Assembly (NCBI GenBank): GCA_016218975.1
Contig: JACRCO010000034.1
Span: forward strand, 1-61,957
Direction of reading: 5' to 3'
Length of the DNA stretch: 61,957 nt
Origin: Deltaproteobacteria bacterium
Lineage (GTDB): Bacteria; Desulfobacterota; Deferrimicrobia; Deferrimicrobiales; Deferrimicrobiaceae
The number at the start of each line of letters is the position of its first letter. Position 1 is the first letter of the stretch. The notes below the pieces were generated by a model. That model worked only from the letters and a program-made list of their open reading frames with translations, made no database searches and was not told the DNA's origin. The position numbers were made by a program, and so were the translations under genes. Shown here in pieces: positions 57,116 through 61,957 of this stretch.

Positions 57116-57175
57116 AGCGGCATCATATATTGTGCGATCACTCCTTGAAAAACGATCATGCCGAGGGGGATTCCG

Positions 57176-58180
57176 ATGAGATATCTCATTCTGGGATGCG
57201 GTCCCGCCGGTGTCGCCGCCGCGAAGGCCATCCGCGGGAAAGATCCGAATGCCGGAATCGTAATCGCGACGGAGGAGCGGGACCCGCCGTATTCAAGACC
57301 GTTGCTGACCGAGTTGATCGCGGGCCGGGTGGGACGCGCCGCGATTTCAGAGCCTCAGGCCGCCGACCTTTCGGAACTGGGGATCGACGTCCGCCTCGGG
57401 ATGCGCGCTTCGAAGCTCGATACCGCGGGAAATCGTGTTGTATTTTCCGACGGAACCGGGTCGGCGTACGACGTCCTTCTAGTGGCGACCGGCGGGAAGC
57501 CCGGCATTCCGCCCGCGCTGCGGATCGGCCACCCGTCGGTGTTGCCGTTCGATTCACTGGAAGACACGTTGAAGATCCTCGAGCGTGTCCCGCCGCGGGG
57601 GACCGTTGCGGTGTGCGGGCCGGGGTTTCTCGCGATCGTTACGAGCAGCGCCCTGCGGAAACGGGGAAACGGCGTGGTCTGGTTCCGTTCCGACAAACCA
57701 CGCCACGGCTACCCGATCGGGGGGGAACTGGAAGCCAACATCCTCGATTCGGTCAGGAACACCGGCGTAAGGATACTCGACGGACATGACATCGCCGAAC
57801 TGCGTGAGGTCGCAGGAGGTCTCGAGGCCGTTCCGACCGTCGGCGGCCCACCGGTCCGTTGCGATGCAGTCGTGATCGCGAACGAGCGGTCGCCTTCGAC
57901 AGGATTTCTTGCCGGCAGCGGGGTGGAGACGGGAGCCGGGATTCTCGTGGACGACCGTCTTAGAACGAACGTTCCGAACATCTACGCCGCCGGCGACTGC
58001 GCCGAGCTTTTCGACTGGGGGAGCGGGCACAGCAGGATCAATTTCGGATTGCGCAGCGCCATAAAGCAGGGGAGACTTGCGGGTGAGAACATGGCGGGCG
58101 CGGAAAAGCTTTACGCCCGGGAAACGTCGGATTACTTCTGGATCCTCTTCGGACCGGCGCTGCTTGACCGGATCAAATAG
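57176..58180 (+). CDS. FAD-dependent NAD(P)H oxidoreductase (rubredoxin/ferredoxin reductase-like)
   Basis: 334 residues. N-terminal FAD site ILGCGPAGVAAAKAI, PPYSRPLLTELIAG, a second dinucleotide region VAVCGPGFLAIV and the C-terminal FAD block NIYAAGDCAE. It lacks the disulfide CxxC of thioredoxin reductases and the C-terminal reductase-dimerisation domain, so it is a short electron-transfer flavoprotein. GAGGGGGA six bases before ATG 57176 fixes the start; an ATG at 57158 is in frame. Partner unknown; it leads a small operon with the thioesterase. Confidence 0.85.
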   Translation: MRYLILGCGPAGVAAAKAIRGKDPNAGIVIATEERDPPYSRPLLTELIAGRVGRAAISEPQAADLSELGIDVRLGMRASKLDTAGNRVVFSDGTGSAYDVLLVATGGKPGIPPALRIGHPSVLPFDSLEDTLKILERVPPRGTVAVCGPGFLAIVTSSALRKRGNGVVWFRSDKPRHGYPIGGELEANILDSVRNTGVRILDGHDIAELREVAGGLEAVPTVGGPPVRCDAVVIANERSPSTGFLAGSGVETGAGILVDDRLRTNVPNIYAAGDCAELFDWGSGHSRINFGLRSAIKQGRLAGENMAGAEKLYARETSDYFWILFGPALLDRIK

Positions 58181-58197
58181 AAGGCGACGGGGGGGAA

Positions 58198-58626
58198 ATG
58201 GAGCAGGCCTTTTCGGATCGGATGAAGGAAAAGATGAAGACGCCGCCGGTGGCCGTCCTCGTGGGGATCCGCTCGCTGTCGTTCGGAGGCGGCGAAGCAG
58301 TACTGGAGATGAAAGCCGACAAGCGCCATCACAACCCGATGGGGACGGTCCACGGCGGGATCCTGTGCGACCTCGCGGACCTCGCGATGGGATACGCGTT
58401 CGCAACGACTCTCGGGCCGGGCGAATCGTTCACGACCCTTGAACTCAAGGTCAATTTCCTGAGACCCGTTTTCGACGAGAAATTGACGGCTAAAGCGAAG
58501 GTGACGCACAGGGGAAGGACGGTCGGCATGGTGGAGTTCGACGTGACGAACGAGGCCGGAAAAACGGTGGCGCGCGGCTCCTCCACATGCACGGTGCTCT
58601 CGGGCGAAGCAGCAAAAGGGAGATGA
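58198..58626 (+). CDS. PaaI/YdiI-family hotdog-fold thioesterase
   Basis: 142 residues. HHNPMGTVHGGILCDLADLAMGYA carries the conserved His-Gly-Gly and acidic catalytic residue of PaaI-type acyl-CoA thioesterases, read in parts; FTTLELKVNFLRPV is the second family strand. Hydrolyses acyl- or aryl-CoA; substrate unknown. Follows the oxidoreductase by 17 bases; its stop overlaps the next ATG (ATGA). Confidence 0.9.
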   Translation: MEQAFSDRMKEKMKTPPVAVLVGIRSLSFGGGEAVLEMKADKRHHNPMGTVHGGILCDLADLAMGYAFATTLGPGESFTTLELKVNFLRPVFDEKLTAKAKVTHRGRTVGMVEFDVTNEAGKTVARGSSTCTVLSGEAAKGR

Positions 58627-59270
58627 GGCGGACCGGCGCCCTGCTGGTCCTTTTCGCCGCCGCGATGGCGTTCGCCGAGGCGGCGGTCGTCGTCTACCTC
58701 CGCCGGGTTCTCGGGGAGGTAGAAATCTTCCCCATGAAGGATCTTCCCCCCCCGCTGCTCACGATCGAGATCGCCCGGGAAGCCGCGACGGTCGCGATGC
58801 TGATTTTCGTTTCCTTTCTTTCCGGGCGAGGCGGTCTGCGCAGGATGGGAGCATTCCTCCTTACGTTCGGCGCCTGGGACATTTTCTATTACGTGTGGCT
58901 TCGCGCCGCCATCGGGTGGCCTTCGGGGCTTTTCGATTGGGACATCCTGTTCCTGATTCCCGCTCCGTGGGTGGGACCGGTCTGGTCGGTGATTCTCATC
59001 TCCACGGGGATGATCGCGTTCTCGTTCGTGTTCCTTCGCATGCCCGAGGATGCCCCGTTTGCACCCGGCCTGTGGGGGTGGATGTCCGGCGCGGCGGGCG
59101 CGCTTGCGGTTATCGGGACATACATCCGGGAATGGGCCAAAATCGGCTACGGGAAGAACGTGCCGTCGGGTTTTTTCCTTCCATCCTATCTTGCGGGTAT
59201 CCTGCTGCTCGCCGTTTCCGGCTGGATCGCATACCGCAAAGCGGGCGGCGTACCCCGGGGAAATTTCTGA
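58623..59270 (+). CDS. Polytopic membrane protein of unknown function
   Basis: 215 residues with about six hydrophobic helices. Short loops carry GAWDIFYYVWLR and an ILFLIPAPWVGPVW block, which I have seen in uncharacterised membrane proteins of anaerobes but cannot name. The ATG at 58623 overlaps the thioesterase stop; the frame extends 12 codons upstream within that gene. Confidence 0.65.
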   Translation: MRRTGALLVLFAAAMAFAEAAVVVYLRRVLGEVEIFPMKDLPPPLLTIEIAREAATVAMLIFVSFLSGRGGLRRMGAFLLTFGAWDIFYYVWLRAAIGWPSGLFDWDILFLIPAPWVGPVWSVILISTGMIAFSFVFLRMPEDAPFAPGLWGWMSGAAGALAVIGTYIREWAKIGYGKNVPSGFFLPSYLAGILLLAVSGWIAYRKAGGVPRGNF

Positions 59271-59346
59271 CCGGGACATCACATCCGAAACGGCAACCCG
59301 CGGCCCGCATATCTTATAGGAAAGCATTCAGTGCAGAGGAGACTGC

Positions 59347-60315
59347 GTGGGAGAACTCGTCGTTTACATACGAATATACGGCGGCATCGCGATTTTCGCC
59401 GCGAGCCTGATCGAGAACCTCGGCGTCCCCTTCCCCGCCTATCCGCTCATCATTCTTGCAGCCGCCTTTGCGGCTTCGGGGATACTCTCCCTTCCGGGGA
59501 TAATTGCGGCCGCCGTTCTCGGAGCGATCGGGGGCGACATCGCCTGGTACTACCTGGGGCGGCATCGGGGCGTCGGGGTGCTCTCTCATCTTTGCAGGGT
59601 CTCCTTCAACCCGGATGCATGCCTCGAGCGCGCAGTGGACGGTTTCCATCGGCGCAAGGTCGCGACCATACTTTTCGCCAAATTCCTCCCCGGCGTGAAC
59701 CTCATCATGCCTCCCCTTGCCGGGGTCTCGAAGATGCCCATCCTTGCATTTCTCGCTCTCGACGGAGCGGGCGCGACGCTTTGGGCGGGAAGCGCCGCCG
59801 CGCTCGGGTGGACGTTCGGCGAGGAGATCGCCGAGTCCGCGCGCGGAATCCAGGGCTGGACGGGATGGATCCTTCTTGCCGGGATCGGCGCCTCTCTGGC
59901 CTGGCGGCTCGGGTTCCGCTACTACCTCGTTCACGCGTTTTCCGCCCCGCGCGTGATGCCCGAGGAAGTCCACCGGAGACTCGCATCGGGGGACGACCTG
60001 CTGGTCGTCGACCTGCGAAGGGACAACGATTACGCATCGTCCGACAGCATGATCGCCGGCGCCTTGCGCGTCCGCCCCGCATCCTTCCACCGGTTCGCCC
60101 ACCATCTGCCCCGTGACCGCGACATCGTTTTTTACTGCACCTGACCGGTCGAGGCCACCAGCGCCAGTCTGGCGCGGATCCTCATCAAGCGCGGGTACGA
60201 CAGGATCGCGGTTCTCTACGGCGGTTTCGACGCATGGTTGCGGGCCGGATTTCCCACTCAGCCCATCATCGCCGGCGAGGCCCCGACAACGGCCTTCCCG
60301 GACGCAACGCAGTAG
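59347..60315 (+). CDS. DedA/VTT-domain membrane protein fused to rhodanese, in-frame TGA at codon 266 (candidate selenoprotein)
   Basis: Reading through TGA 60142-60144 gives 322 residues. The DedA/VTT part (1-~205) has FAKFLPGVNLIMPPLAG, the family F-x-P-G motif, and several helices; the rhodanese part (~210-310) has VVDLRRDNDYASSDSMIAGA and the active-site loop YCT-U-PVEATSA. In relatives, as I recall them, this loop reads YC-x-CP-NEATSA, so TGA sits where Cys is expected, two after catalytic-position Cys264. The 56 codons after TGA keep high GC3 and normal rhodanese ending (YGGFDAWLRAGFP) before TAG. A SECIS-like hairpin follows the TGA. GTG start with GAGGAG. Alternative: a recent nonsense mutation or sequencing error. 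Confidence 0.75.
60151..60183 (+). promoter_or_regulatory. Bacterial SECIS-like stem-loop downstream of the in-frame TGA
   Basis: Upper stem GCGCC (60161-60165) with GGCGC (60171-60175), loop AGTCT with G second. Bulged lower pairs CC/GG (60158-59 with 60176-77) and GAGG/CCTC (60151-54 with 60180-83). The loop starts 21 bases after the TGA, inside the 16-37 base range used for bacterial SECIS elements. Confidence 0.6.
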
Positions 60316-60422: not shown

Positions 60423-60498
60423 TCCCTGGTAGCTCAACCGGCAGAGCGGGTGGCTGTTAACCACTAGGTTGCAGGTTCGAGTCCTGCCCAGGGAGCCA
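60423..60498 (+). tRNA. tRNA-Asn (anticodon GTT), CCA encoded
   Basis: 76 bases. Acceptor TCCCTGG (60423-60429) pairs with CCAGGGA (60488-60494), followed by discriminator G and encoded CCA. D-arm AGCTCAACCGGCAGAGC, anticodon stem GGTGG/CCAC with loop CTGTTAA, and T-loop TTCGAGT are all present. The serine recombinase stop codon (60464-60466, minus strand) lies inside this gene. With GatCAB upstream, the tRNA may be charged through Asp-tRNA(Asn). Confidence 0.96.
60464..60498. other. Probable integration (att) site in the 3' half of tRNA-Asn
   Basis: The recombinase frame runs across the T-arm and acceptor of tRNA-Asn and ends at the anticodon arm, giving the tell-tale C terminus LAPWAGLEPAT. 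This is the pattern left when an element inserts in a tRNA 3' end and restores it. The second att copy would be beyond the right edge. Confidence 0.45.
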
Positions 60499-61957
60499 AA
60501 TAGTCCGCCGTACGAACCGAGGCCCGCTTCGGTAAGCAGTACCAGACCTCGATCGTGCGGCGATCGTGGATAAGCACCTTCTTCACCACTCGGCGGAGAA
60601 GGTGCTTTTTTTGCGGGTTCGTCCCGTTCGCCATCGTCTCGTCGAACTCCCTCAGGATCTCTTCGAGCATCTCCTTGTCGACCGGCGGGATCGTAAGCCG
60701 GCCTTTCCGGGCAGCCAGTTCTTTTCTCTCGATCTCCAGCGCTTCCAGGGTGGCGGTGAGGTCCTTGACCTTCTGGTTGCATAGGTCGGGCTTCATGGTC
60801 CCGGCCTCGAACGCTTCGAAGTACCGGTCGAGCTTGGCCCGTGCCTTGGCGATCTGACTCTCGATCCGGGCGAGCTCCTTCTTCAGGGCGGGTTTCTCCG
60901 CGACCAGCAGCTCGTTCGCCTTTGCCCACAGGCGGGCCATGAAATCCTCGTCCCGGAGCATCGTCCGGATGTCCTTGATGATCGCCGCCTCGAGGAGGTC
61001 GGCCCGCACGTAGTCCTGGTCGCATTCGCGGATGCGCCAGCGCTTGTTGCAGAGGTAGTAGGGGAACTTGCGGCCATGATTACGTGTGCTCACCCCGACC
61101 ATGTGGGTCTTGCACTTGGCGCAGTAGATGATGCCGGCCAACAGTCGTTCTTCCCCGTTGTCGAACCGGCGGCCGCTCAAGGTCTCCACGCGGTCTTTGA
61201 GGAGCCCCTTGGTCTTGTCGAAGAGGGCCTCGGAGACGATGGGCTGGTGGGTTCCCTCGTAGATCACCTCGCGCCAGCGGATCTTCCCCACGTAGATCGG
61301 GTTCCTGACCATGTGGAGGATCACCTGTTTGGTCCACTTCTGCCCGCTGCGCTTGCGGTGACCGGCCTCGTTGAGCTTGTGGCAGATTGTCTGCATCCCT
61401 TCCCGTCCGAAGGCGTACATCTGGAACATCTTCCTGACGATGAGGGCCTCCTCCTCGTTGATCACGAGGCCCTTTTCCGGATCGAGCGTGAATCCGTACG
61501 GGACGTTTCCGCCCACAAACTTTCCGCCCTTGGCCTTCTTCTCCATCCCGACCTTTGTGCGTTCGACGATGGTGGCGTGCTCGAACTCCGCGAAGACGCC
61601 CAGCATCTGGAGCATCATCTTCCCGGCGGCATTCGCGGTATCGAACGGCTCGGTGATGCTTTTCAGCGCGATCCCGTTCTTCGTGAGCTCATCGACCATC
61701 ATTGCGAGCTCGCGGACCTTGCGGGATAGCCGGTCCACCCGGAACACGAGAAGAGTATCGAACGCCCGGGCCCCGGCGTCGTAGAGCATCTCCTCGAGGC
61801 CCGGGCGGTTCATGTGCGTCCCGGATTCGGTGTCGCGGAAGAGCTTGTGGAGGCGCCAGTCGTCTCCGTACTGCGATTTGCAGTAGGCCTCCAGCCGTTC
61901 CGACTGGGCCCCGAGGGAGTATTTCTGGTGGTCTTCGTCGGTCGAGATGCGGGTGTA
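60464..61957 (-). CDS. Large serine recombinase (5' end outside the window)
   Basis: At least 497 residues; the frame is open to the right edge, where YTRISTDEDHQK is the catalytic start (Ser of RIST). Only about ten N-terminal residues are missing. Resolvase domain includes VFRVDRLSRKVREL and GKMMLQMLGVFAEFE. Recombinase domain GGNVPYGFTLDPE follows, then a zinc beta-ribbon (IIYCAKCKTHM ... YYLC) and a coiled coil (about 340-410 of the visible part). Integrates or excises mobile elements. Its 3' end lies in tRNA-Asn. Confidence 0.92.
   Translation of the reverse strand, partial: YTRISTDEDHQKYSLGAQSERLEAYCKSQYGDDWRLHKLFRDTESGTHMNRPGLEEMLYDAGARAFDTLLVFRVDRLSRKVRELAMMVDELTKNGIALKSITEPFDTANAAGKMMLQMLGVFAEFEHATIVERTKVGMEKKAKGGKFVGGNVPYGFTLDPEKGLVINEEEALIVRKMFQMYAFGREGMQTICHKLNEAGHRKRSGQKWTKQVILHMVRNPIYVGKIRWREVIYEGTHQPIVSEALFDKTKGLLKDRVETLSGRRFDNGEERLLAGIIYCAKCKTHMVGVSTRNHGRKFPYYLCNKRWRIRECDQDYVRADLLEAAIIKDIRTMLRDEDFMARLWAKANELLVAEKPALKKELARIESQIAKARAKLDRYFEAFEAGTMKPDLCNQKVKDLTATLEALEIERKELAARKGRLTIPPVDKEMLEEILREFDETMANGTNPQKKHLLRRVVKKVLIHDRRTIEVWYCLPKRASVRTADYLAPWAGLEPAT

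Follow-up and report, generated by a model that had tools for sequence, protein, structure and literature searches.

Undecaprenyl-phosphate flippases of the DedA family depend on four essential residues, which are Glu39, Asp51, Arg130, and Arg136 in YghB (PMC10127716). DedA proteins fused to a rhodanese are also on record, and their purpose is unexplained (PMC10127716). One of them is PA1209 of P. aeruginosa, which is a DedA/rhodanese fusion by its Pfam domains (PMC12893004). Among the bacterial selenoproteins, a recent list includes a rhodanese of the CxU kind, in single-Sec form only, and the accompanying review also covers a rhodanese/DsbD fusion; DedA is not mentioned there (PMC13188914).

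The window analysed here is the whole stretch of 61,957 nucleotides of contig JACRCO010000034.1 (assembly GCA_016218975.1), from a deltaproteobacterium of the family Deferrimicrobiaceae. It contains a DedA-rhodanese fusion gene, whose features are listed in Table 1. The frame holds a single in-frame TGA, which sits in the rhodanese loop (YCT-U-P) and is followed by 56 sense codons up to the TAG. On comparative evidence this TGA is a selenocysteine codon, with a probability of roughly 0.97. The product is then very likely a selenoprotein in which a DedA (VTT) half is joined to a rhodanese half, carrying the loop Cys264-Thr-Sec266.

Table 1. Features of the fusion gene; positions are those of the window.
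Feature	Position	Strand	Remarks
DedA(VTT)-rhodanese selenoprotein gene (predicted)	59347..60315	+	GTG start, TAG stop (60313-60315); 322 aa with Sec266
GAGGAG, likely ribosome-binding site	59336..59341	+	5 nt 5' of GTG 59347 (sequence)
VTT (DedA) domain, residues 30-154	59434..59808	+	Pfam VTT_dom, 34.3 bits
Cys83...Cys92 loop, CRVSFNPDAC	59593..59622	+	both Cys invariant in 18 aligned fusions
Rhodanese domain, residues 205-299	59959..60243	+	Pfam Rhodanese, 43.6 bits; NF041203, 104.2 bits
TGC, Cys264	60136..60138	+	aligns with the canonical rhodanese active-site Cys (YC)
TGA, codon for Sec266	60142..60144	+	column comparison, coding continuity
SECIS-type hairpin GCGCC-AGTCT-GGCGC	60161..60175	+	invariant apical G at 60167

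The fusion was found in 11 of the 24 genomes of the window's family, and eight copies are full-length, including the window's own. The seven others are 54-62% identical to the window protein, and all eight have TGA at the same column. In a ninth genome (G008) the TGA lies beyond an assembly gap, so that the codon is TGA in 9/9 readable cases; the two remaining fusions are cut by contig ends before the codon can be read. A wider sample of 395 genomes was drawn from the same phylum. TGA was also found in four fusions from three other families (G034, G213, G081, and G195), and their close kin G071, G106, and G164 have TGT at exactly the same codon. The proteobacterial fusions L039-L041 have TGC, and the Cupriavidus metallidurans CH34 fusion also has Cys at this column. 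The 18 aligned fusions comprise 12 TGA and 6 TGT/TGC forms. On their maximum-likelihood tree the Sec label takes three changes, two of which are forced by well supported branches, so that exchange between Sec and Cys took place at least twice. By sequence comparison, the Sec form of the fusion occurs in four or more families of a single phylum, and relatives carry Cys forms. Because 12 other genomes share the TGA column, it is neither due to chance nor to a base-call error.

The TGA is followed by a candidate SECIS hairpin. With the first base of the TGA taken as offset 0, the stem GCGCC/GGCGC begins at offset 19 and encloses a five-base loop. All five stem pairs are retained in 62 of 65 Sec rhodanese genes, fusion and stand-alone forms together, and the second loop base is G in every one of the 65. 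Both bases of the second stem pair are third bases of codons, which in most genes are Ser AGY and Ala GCN. It is C-G in 31 genes and T-A in another 31, with T-G, C-A, and C-C found once each. Since both sides of this pair can change without altering the protein, the covariation points to an RNA structure. The pair is C-G throughout the window's own family, and the T-A forms come from the stand-alone relatives. The hairpin is nearly identical within the family, so its conservation there partly reflects ancestry and amino-acid constraint.

Codon choice was compared with a synonymous shuffle, in which the protein stays unchanged and codons are drawn according to the usage of the gene concerned. 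For the window hairpin, P was about 0.02 for the pairs and 0.008 for the energy, making a chance origin of its codon choice unlikely. The stem gave P = 0.008-0.048 in 11 of the 12 Sec fusions; the exception is L020 (P 0.20), in which the hairpin is shifted and weaker. Five of the six Cys fusions lack the hairpin and have no significant stem. The sixth, L072 (G164), keeps a perfect SECIS-type hairpin, and may be a recent Sec-to-Cys change still carrying the old structure. Folded alone and compared with shuffles, the hairpin gave only weak signals (z -1.5 and -0.4); the case was decided by the comparative tests and not by lone folding. On this comparative evidence the hairpin is a SECIS, predicted to aid Sec decoding by SelA/SelB/SelC/SelD.

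The genes for this machinery, which an earlier note on this DNA had named as a check, are all present in the window's own genome (97.6% complete). The tRNA-Sec gene selC scored 74.2 bits (contig C53), selA 569 bits (C13), selB 304 bits, above the cut-off (C36), and selD 322 bits (L059, G000:C3:20088-20882). An in-frame TGA also interrupts the selD match, so SelD is probably itself a selenoprotein. No selC above the cut-off was found in three draft genomes with a Sec fusion (G017, G081, and G213). Within the family, selA is present in 11/11 genomes with the fusion and missing from 3/13 genomes without it; this co-occurrence is consistent, in a sample too small for proof.

The DedA half narrowly passes the VTT/DedA cut-off of PF09335 (34.3 vs 33.9 bits), and the rhodanese half passes that of PF00581 (43.6 vs 22.2 bits). 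Among the curated families the rhodanese half comes closest to NF041203, 'rhodanese-related (seleno)protein', for which the score of 104.2 bits falls below the cut-off of 115. By this score the rhodanese half is a relative of NF041203 and not a formal member. The CxU loop that characterizes NF041203 is present as YC-T-U. The residue two positions before Sec is the canonical rhodanese Cys, where the ordinary rhodaneses L050 and L051 align as YCxxGxRS. The proposal of the earlier note that Sec stands at the rhodanese active site holds for the active-site loop and can be refined for the residue: the canonical Cys is Cys264, and Sec266 follows two residues later. Double-Sec loops (YUxU), with TGA at the canonical catalytic position as well as two residues on, were observed in five stand-alone rhodaneses of two families, f9 and f59: L024 (G032), L087 (G141), L126 (G254), L132 (G161), and L136 (G233). 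Their presence in these relatives is in keeping with chemical activity of both residues of the pair.

The AlphaFold model (18 sequences; mean pLDDT 87.7) combines a helical membrane half with a rhodanese half, and the Foldseek matches listed are rhodanese domains of solved structures, with TM-scores by target up to 0.87. The Arg/Lys-rich loop at about residues 75-105 and the Arg-rich segment past the last helix are both predicted to be cytoplasmic. The rhodanese half would then lie on the cytoplasmic side, as would Cys83 and Cys92, which the Arg/Lys-rich loop holds. The CxU pair might act as a thiol/selenol redox couple. Cys264 would accept sulfane sulfur as a persulfide, or become oxidised; Sec266 would then attack Cys264, releasing sulfide and forming a selenenylsulfide, which either a cellular reductant or the Cys83/Cys92 pair could then reduce. 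Such a redox/persulfide mechanism is given somewhat less than even odds. The DedA half would not be a standard undecaprenyl-phosphate flippase but a diverged transporter or anchor, serving to place this chemistry at the membrane. More tentatively, the diverged DedA transporter and the CxU rhodanese may form one membrane selenoenzyme that acts as a unit at the inner membrane, where its substrate would be a sulfur, selenium, or thiol compound and Cys83/Cys92 would exchange electrons with Cys264-Sec266; this specific picture is doubtful. As to function, our guess is that the protein is no ordinary flippase but a membrane-bound enzyme of thiol/selenol redox or sulfane-sulfur chemistry.

The selenoprotein might instead import or detoxify selenium or sulfur species, with the DedA half moving the compound and the CxU rhodanese binding it on arrival. 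DedA has been linked to selenite resistance, according to the passage of PMC10127716 that cites Ledgham 2005. Sulfane sulfur is handled by rhodaneses, and a Cys-form fusion occurs in C. metallidurans CH34. This is reportedly the strain in which that resistance was studied, though the resistance gene need not be the fusion. Conserved selenium or sulfur transport genes were not found beside the fusion, and import or detoxification seems rather unlikely. The genes 5' of the fusion (57158-59270) encode a Pyr_redox_2 protein, a thioesterase, and an unnamed membrane protein of 227 aa; several family genomes have homologues of each close to the fusion. Outside the family, the fusions share no obvious neighbour, and the neighbourhood offers no decisive clue to the mechanism. 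Downstream, a serine recombinase gene with Resolvase, Recombinase, and zinc ribbon domains (60464-61813, minus strand) abuts tRNA-Asn (60423-60498), and probably marks the end of an integrated element.

Alternatively, the DedA half could work as a normal undecaprenyl-phosphate flippase, and the Sec rhodanese could be a redox sensor or regulator of flipping. The DedA halves of the fusions match the flippase models NF052604/5 weakly (30-33 bits). The published count of COG0586 includes rhodanese fusions (PMC10127716). The position of YghB Glu39 corresponds to E23 of the window protein and is Glu in 15 of the 18 fusions. However, the position of Asp51 (residue 32) is acidic in 0/18 fusions, that of Arg136 (N118) is N, T, S, or A in 18/18, and that of Arg130 (K112) is Lys in 17 and Arg in one. 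The fusions thus lack the full four-residue set of the COG0586 flippases, whereas in the unfused kin L077, L079, and L090 the Asp51 position is acidic and the Arg136 position is Arg. A normal flippase half is unlikely. Cys83 and Cys92 are found in 18/18 fusions. A Cys pair at the same place also occurs in the unfused L077 and L090, and so may predate the fusion.

A real stop at the TGA would leave a truncated 265-aa DedA-rhodanese, as a decaying gene or a sequencing error. TGA is a stop in the standard code, and it ends neighbouring genes at 58626 and 59270. This normal use nearby means that the code is not reassigned, and a reassigned code was ruled out on the same ground. However, this TGA is shared by 13 genomes from four families, and the coding sequence past it is conserved. 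GC3 of the window gene is 0.78 on the 5' side of the TGA and 0.84 on the 3' side. Pairwise dN/dS within the family is 0.17-0.55 after the TGA and 0.19-0.47 before it; the ratios are rough, as synonymous divergence is high, and they indicate that the tail is under protein-level selection. Considering also the Sec/Cys exchange at this column and the covarying hairpin, a real stop is very improbable. Chance or decay was ruled out by the conserved TGA column, the Sec/Cys pairs, and the constraint after the TGA. The earlier note had described the in-frame TGA and the 56 codons beyond it, the high GC3 kept past it, Cys in homologues at this column, and a hairpin with a loop G at SECIS distance, and had considered a decayed gene unlikely; its coordinates and description were correct, and each of these points was upheld. 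Decoding of the TGA as Trp or Gly, or by near-cognate readthrough, is recoding of a kind that exists elsewhere, and it is hardly credible here, since at this column the homologues carry Cys and in no case Trp or Gly, TGA serves the genome as an ordinary stop, and the Sec machinery is complete.

The selenocysteine reading adds a membrane architecture to the bacterial selenoproteins, in which a Sec active site is tied to the DedA family. A DedA-rhodanese selenoprotein was absent from the selenoprotein lists and family models compared, and no paper joining selenocysteine, rhodanese, and DedA was found among the open-access papers searched. The earlier suggestion of a new selenoprotein architecture holds for the membrane DedA fusion; the rhodanese half is close to the catalogued Sec family NF041203, so the novelty lies in the fusion. 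As the score is below the cut-off of this nearest NCBI model, ordinary annotation pipelines probably cut the gene short. The function lends itself to testing, given that near relatives have switched repeatedly between Sec and Cys and that culturable Burkholderiales and Pseudomonas relatives have the Cys form.

Compared with the known systems, the fusions share the VTT domain with the COG0586 flippases such as E. coli YghB, and resemble them at the Glu39 position only in part; they differ in the Asp51, Arg130, and Arg136 equivalents. TsoB (NF045694) is likewise named as a rhodanese fusion selenoprotein, of the rhodanese/DsbD fusion-like kind. However, it has another fusion partner and two Sec residues (UxxxxU), and the window protein scores 33 bits against its cut-off of 805. 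The rhodanese_LYCAU family NF041203 (rhodanese-like form 3, CxU, PMC13188914) shares the CxU loop and the position and kind of the SECIS, and its domain can be aligned with that of the window over 110 residues. Its model describes a 126-position stand-alone domain, and the start reads as a signal peptide in the two members inspected (L024 and L087), whereas in the window protein the domain follows a fused DedA membrane half. The Pseudomonadota DedA/rhodanese fusions (PA1209 of P. aeruginosa, Cupriavidus, and Burkholderia) have Cys in place of Sec, and the SECIS hairpin is absent in L039-L041. Their domain order is identical to that of the window protein, and the fusions L039-L041 and that of CH34 also share the YCxCPxE-type motif and the Cys83/Cys92 pair.
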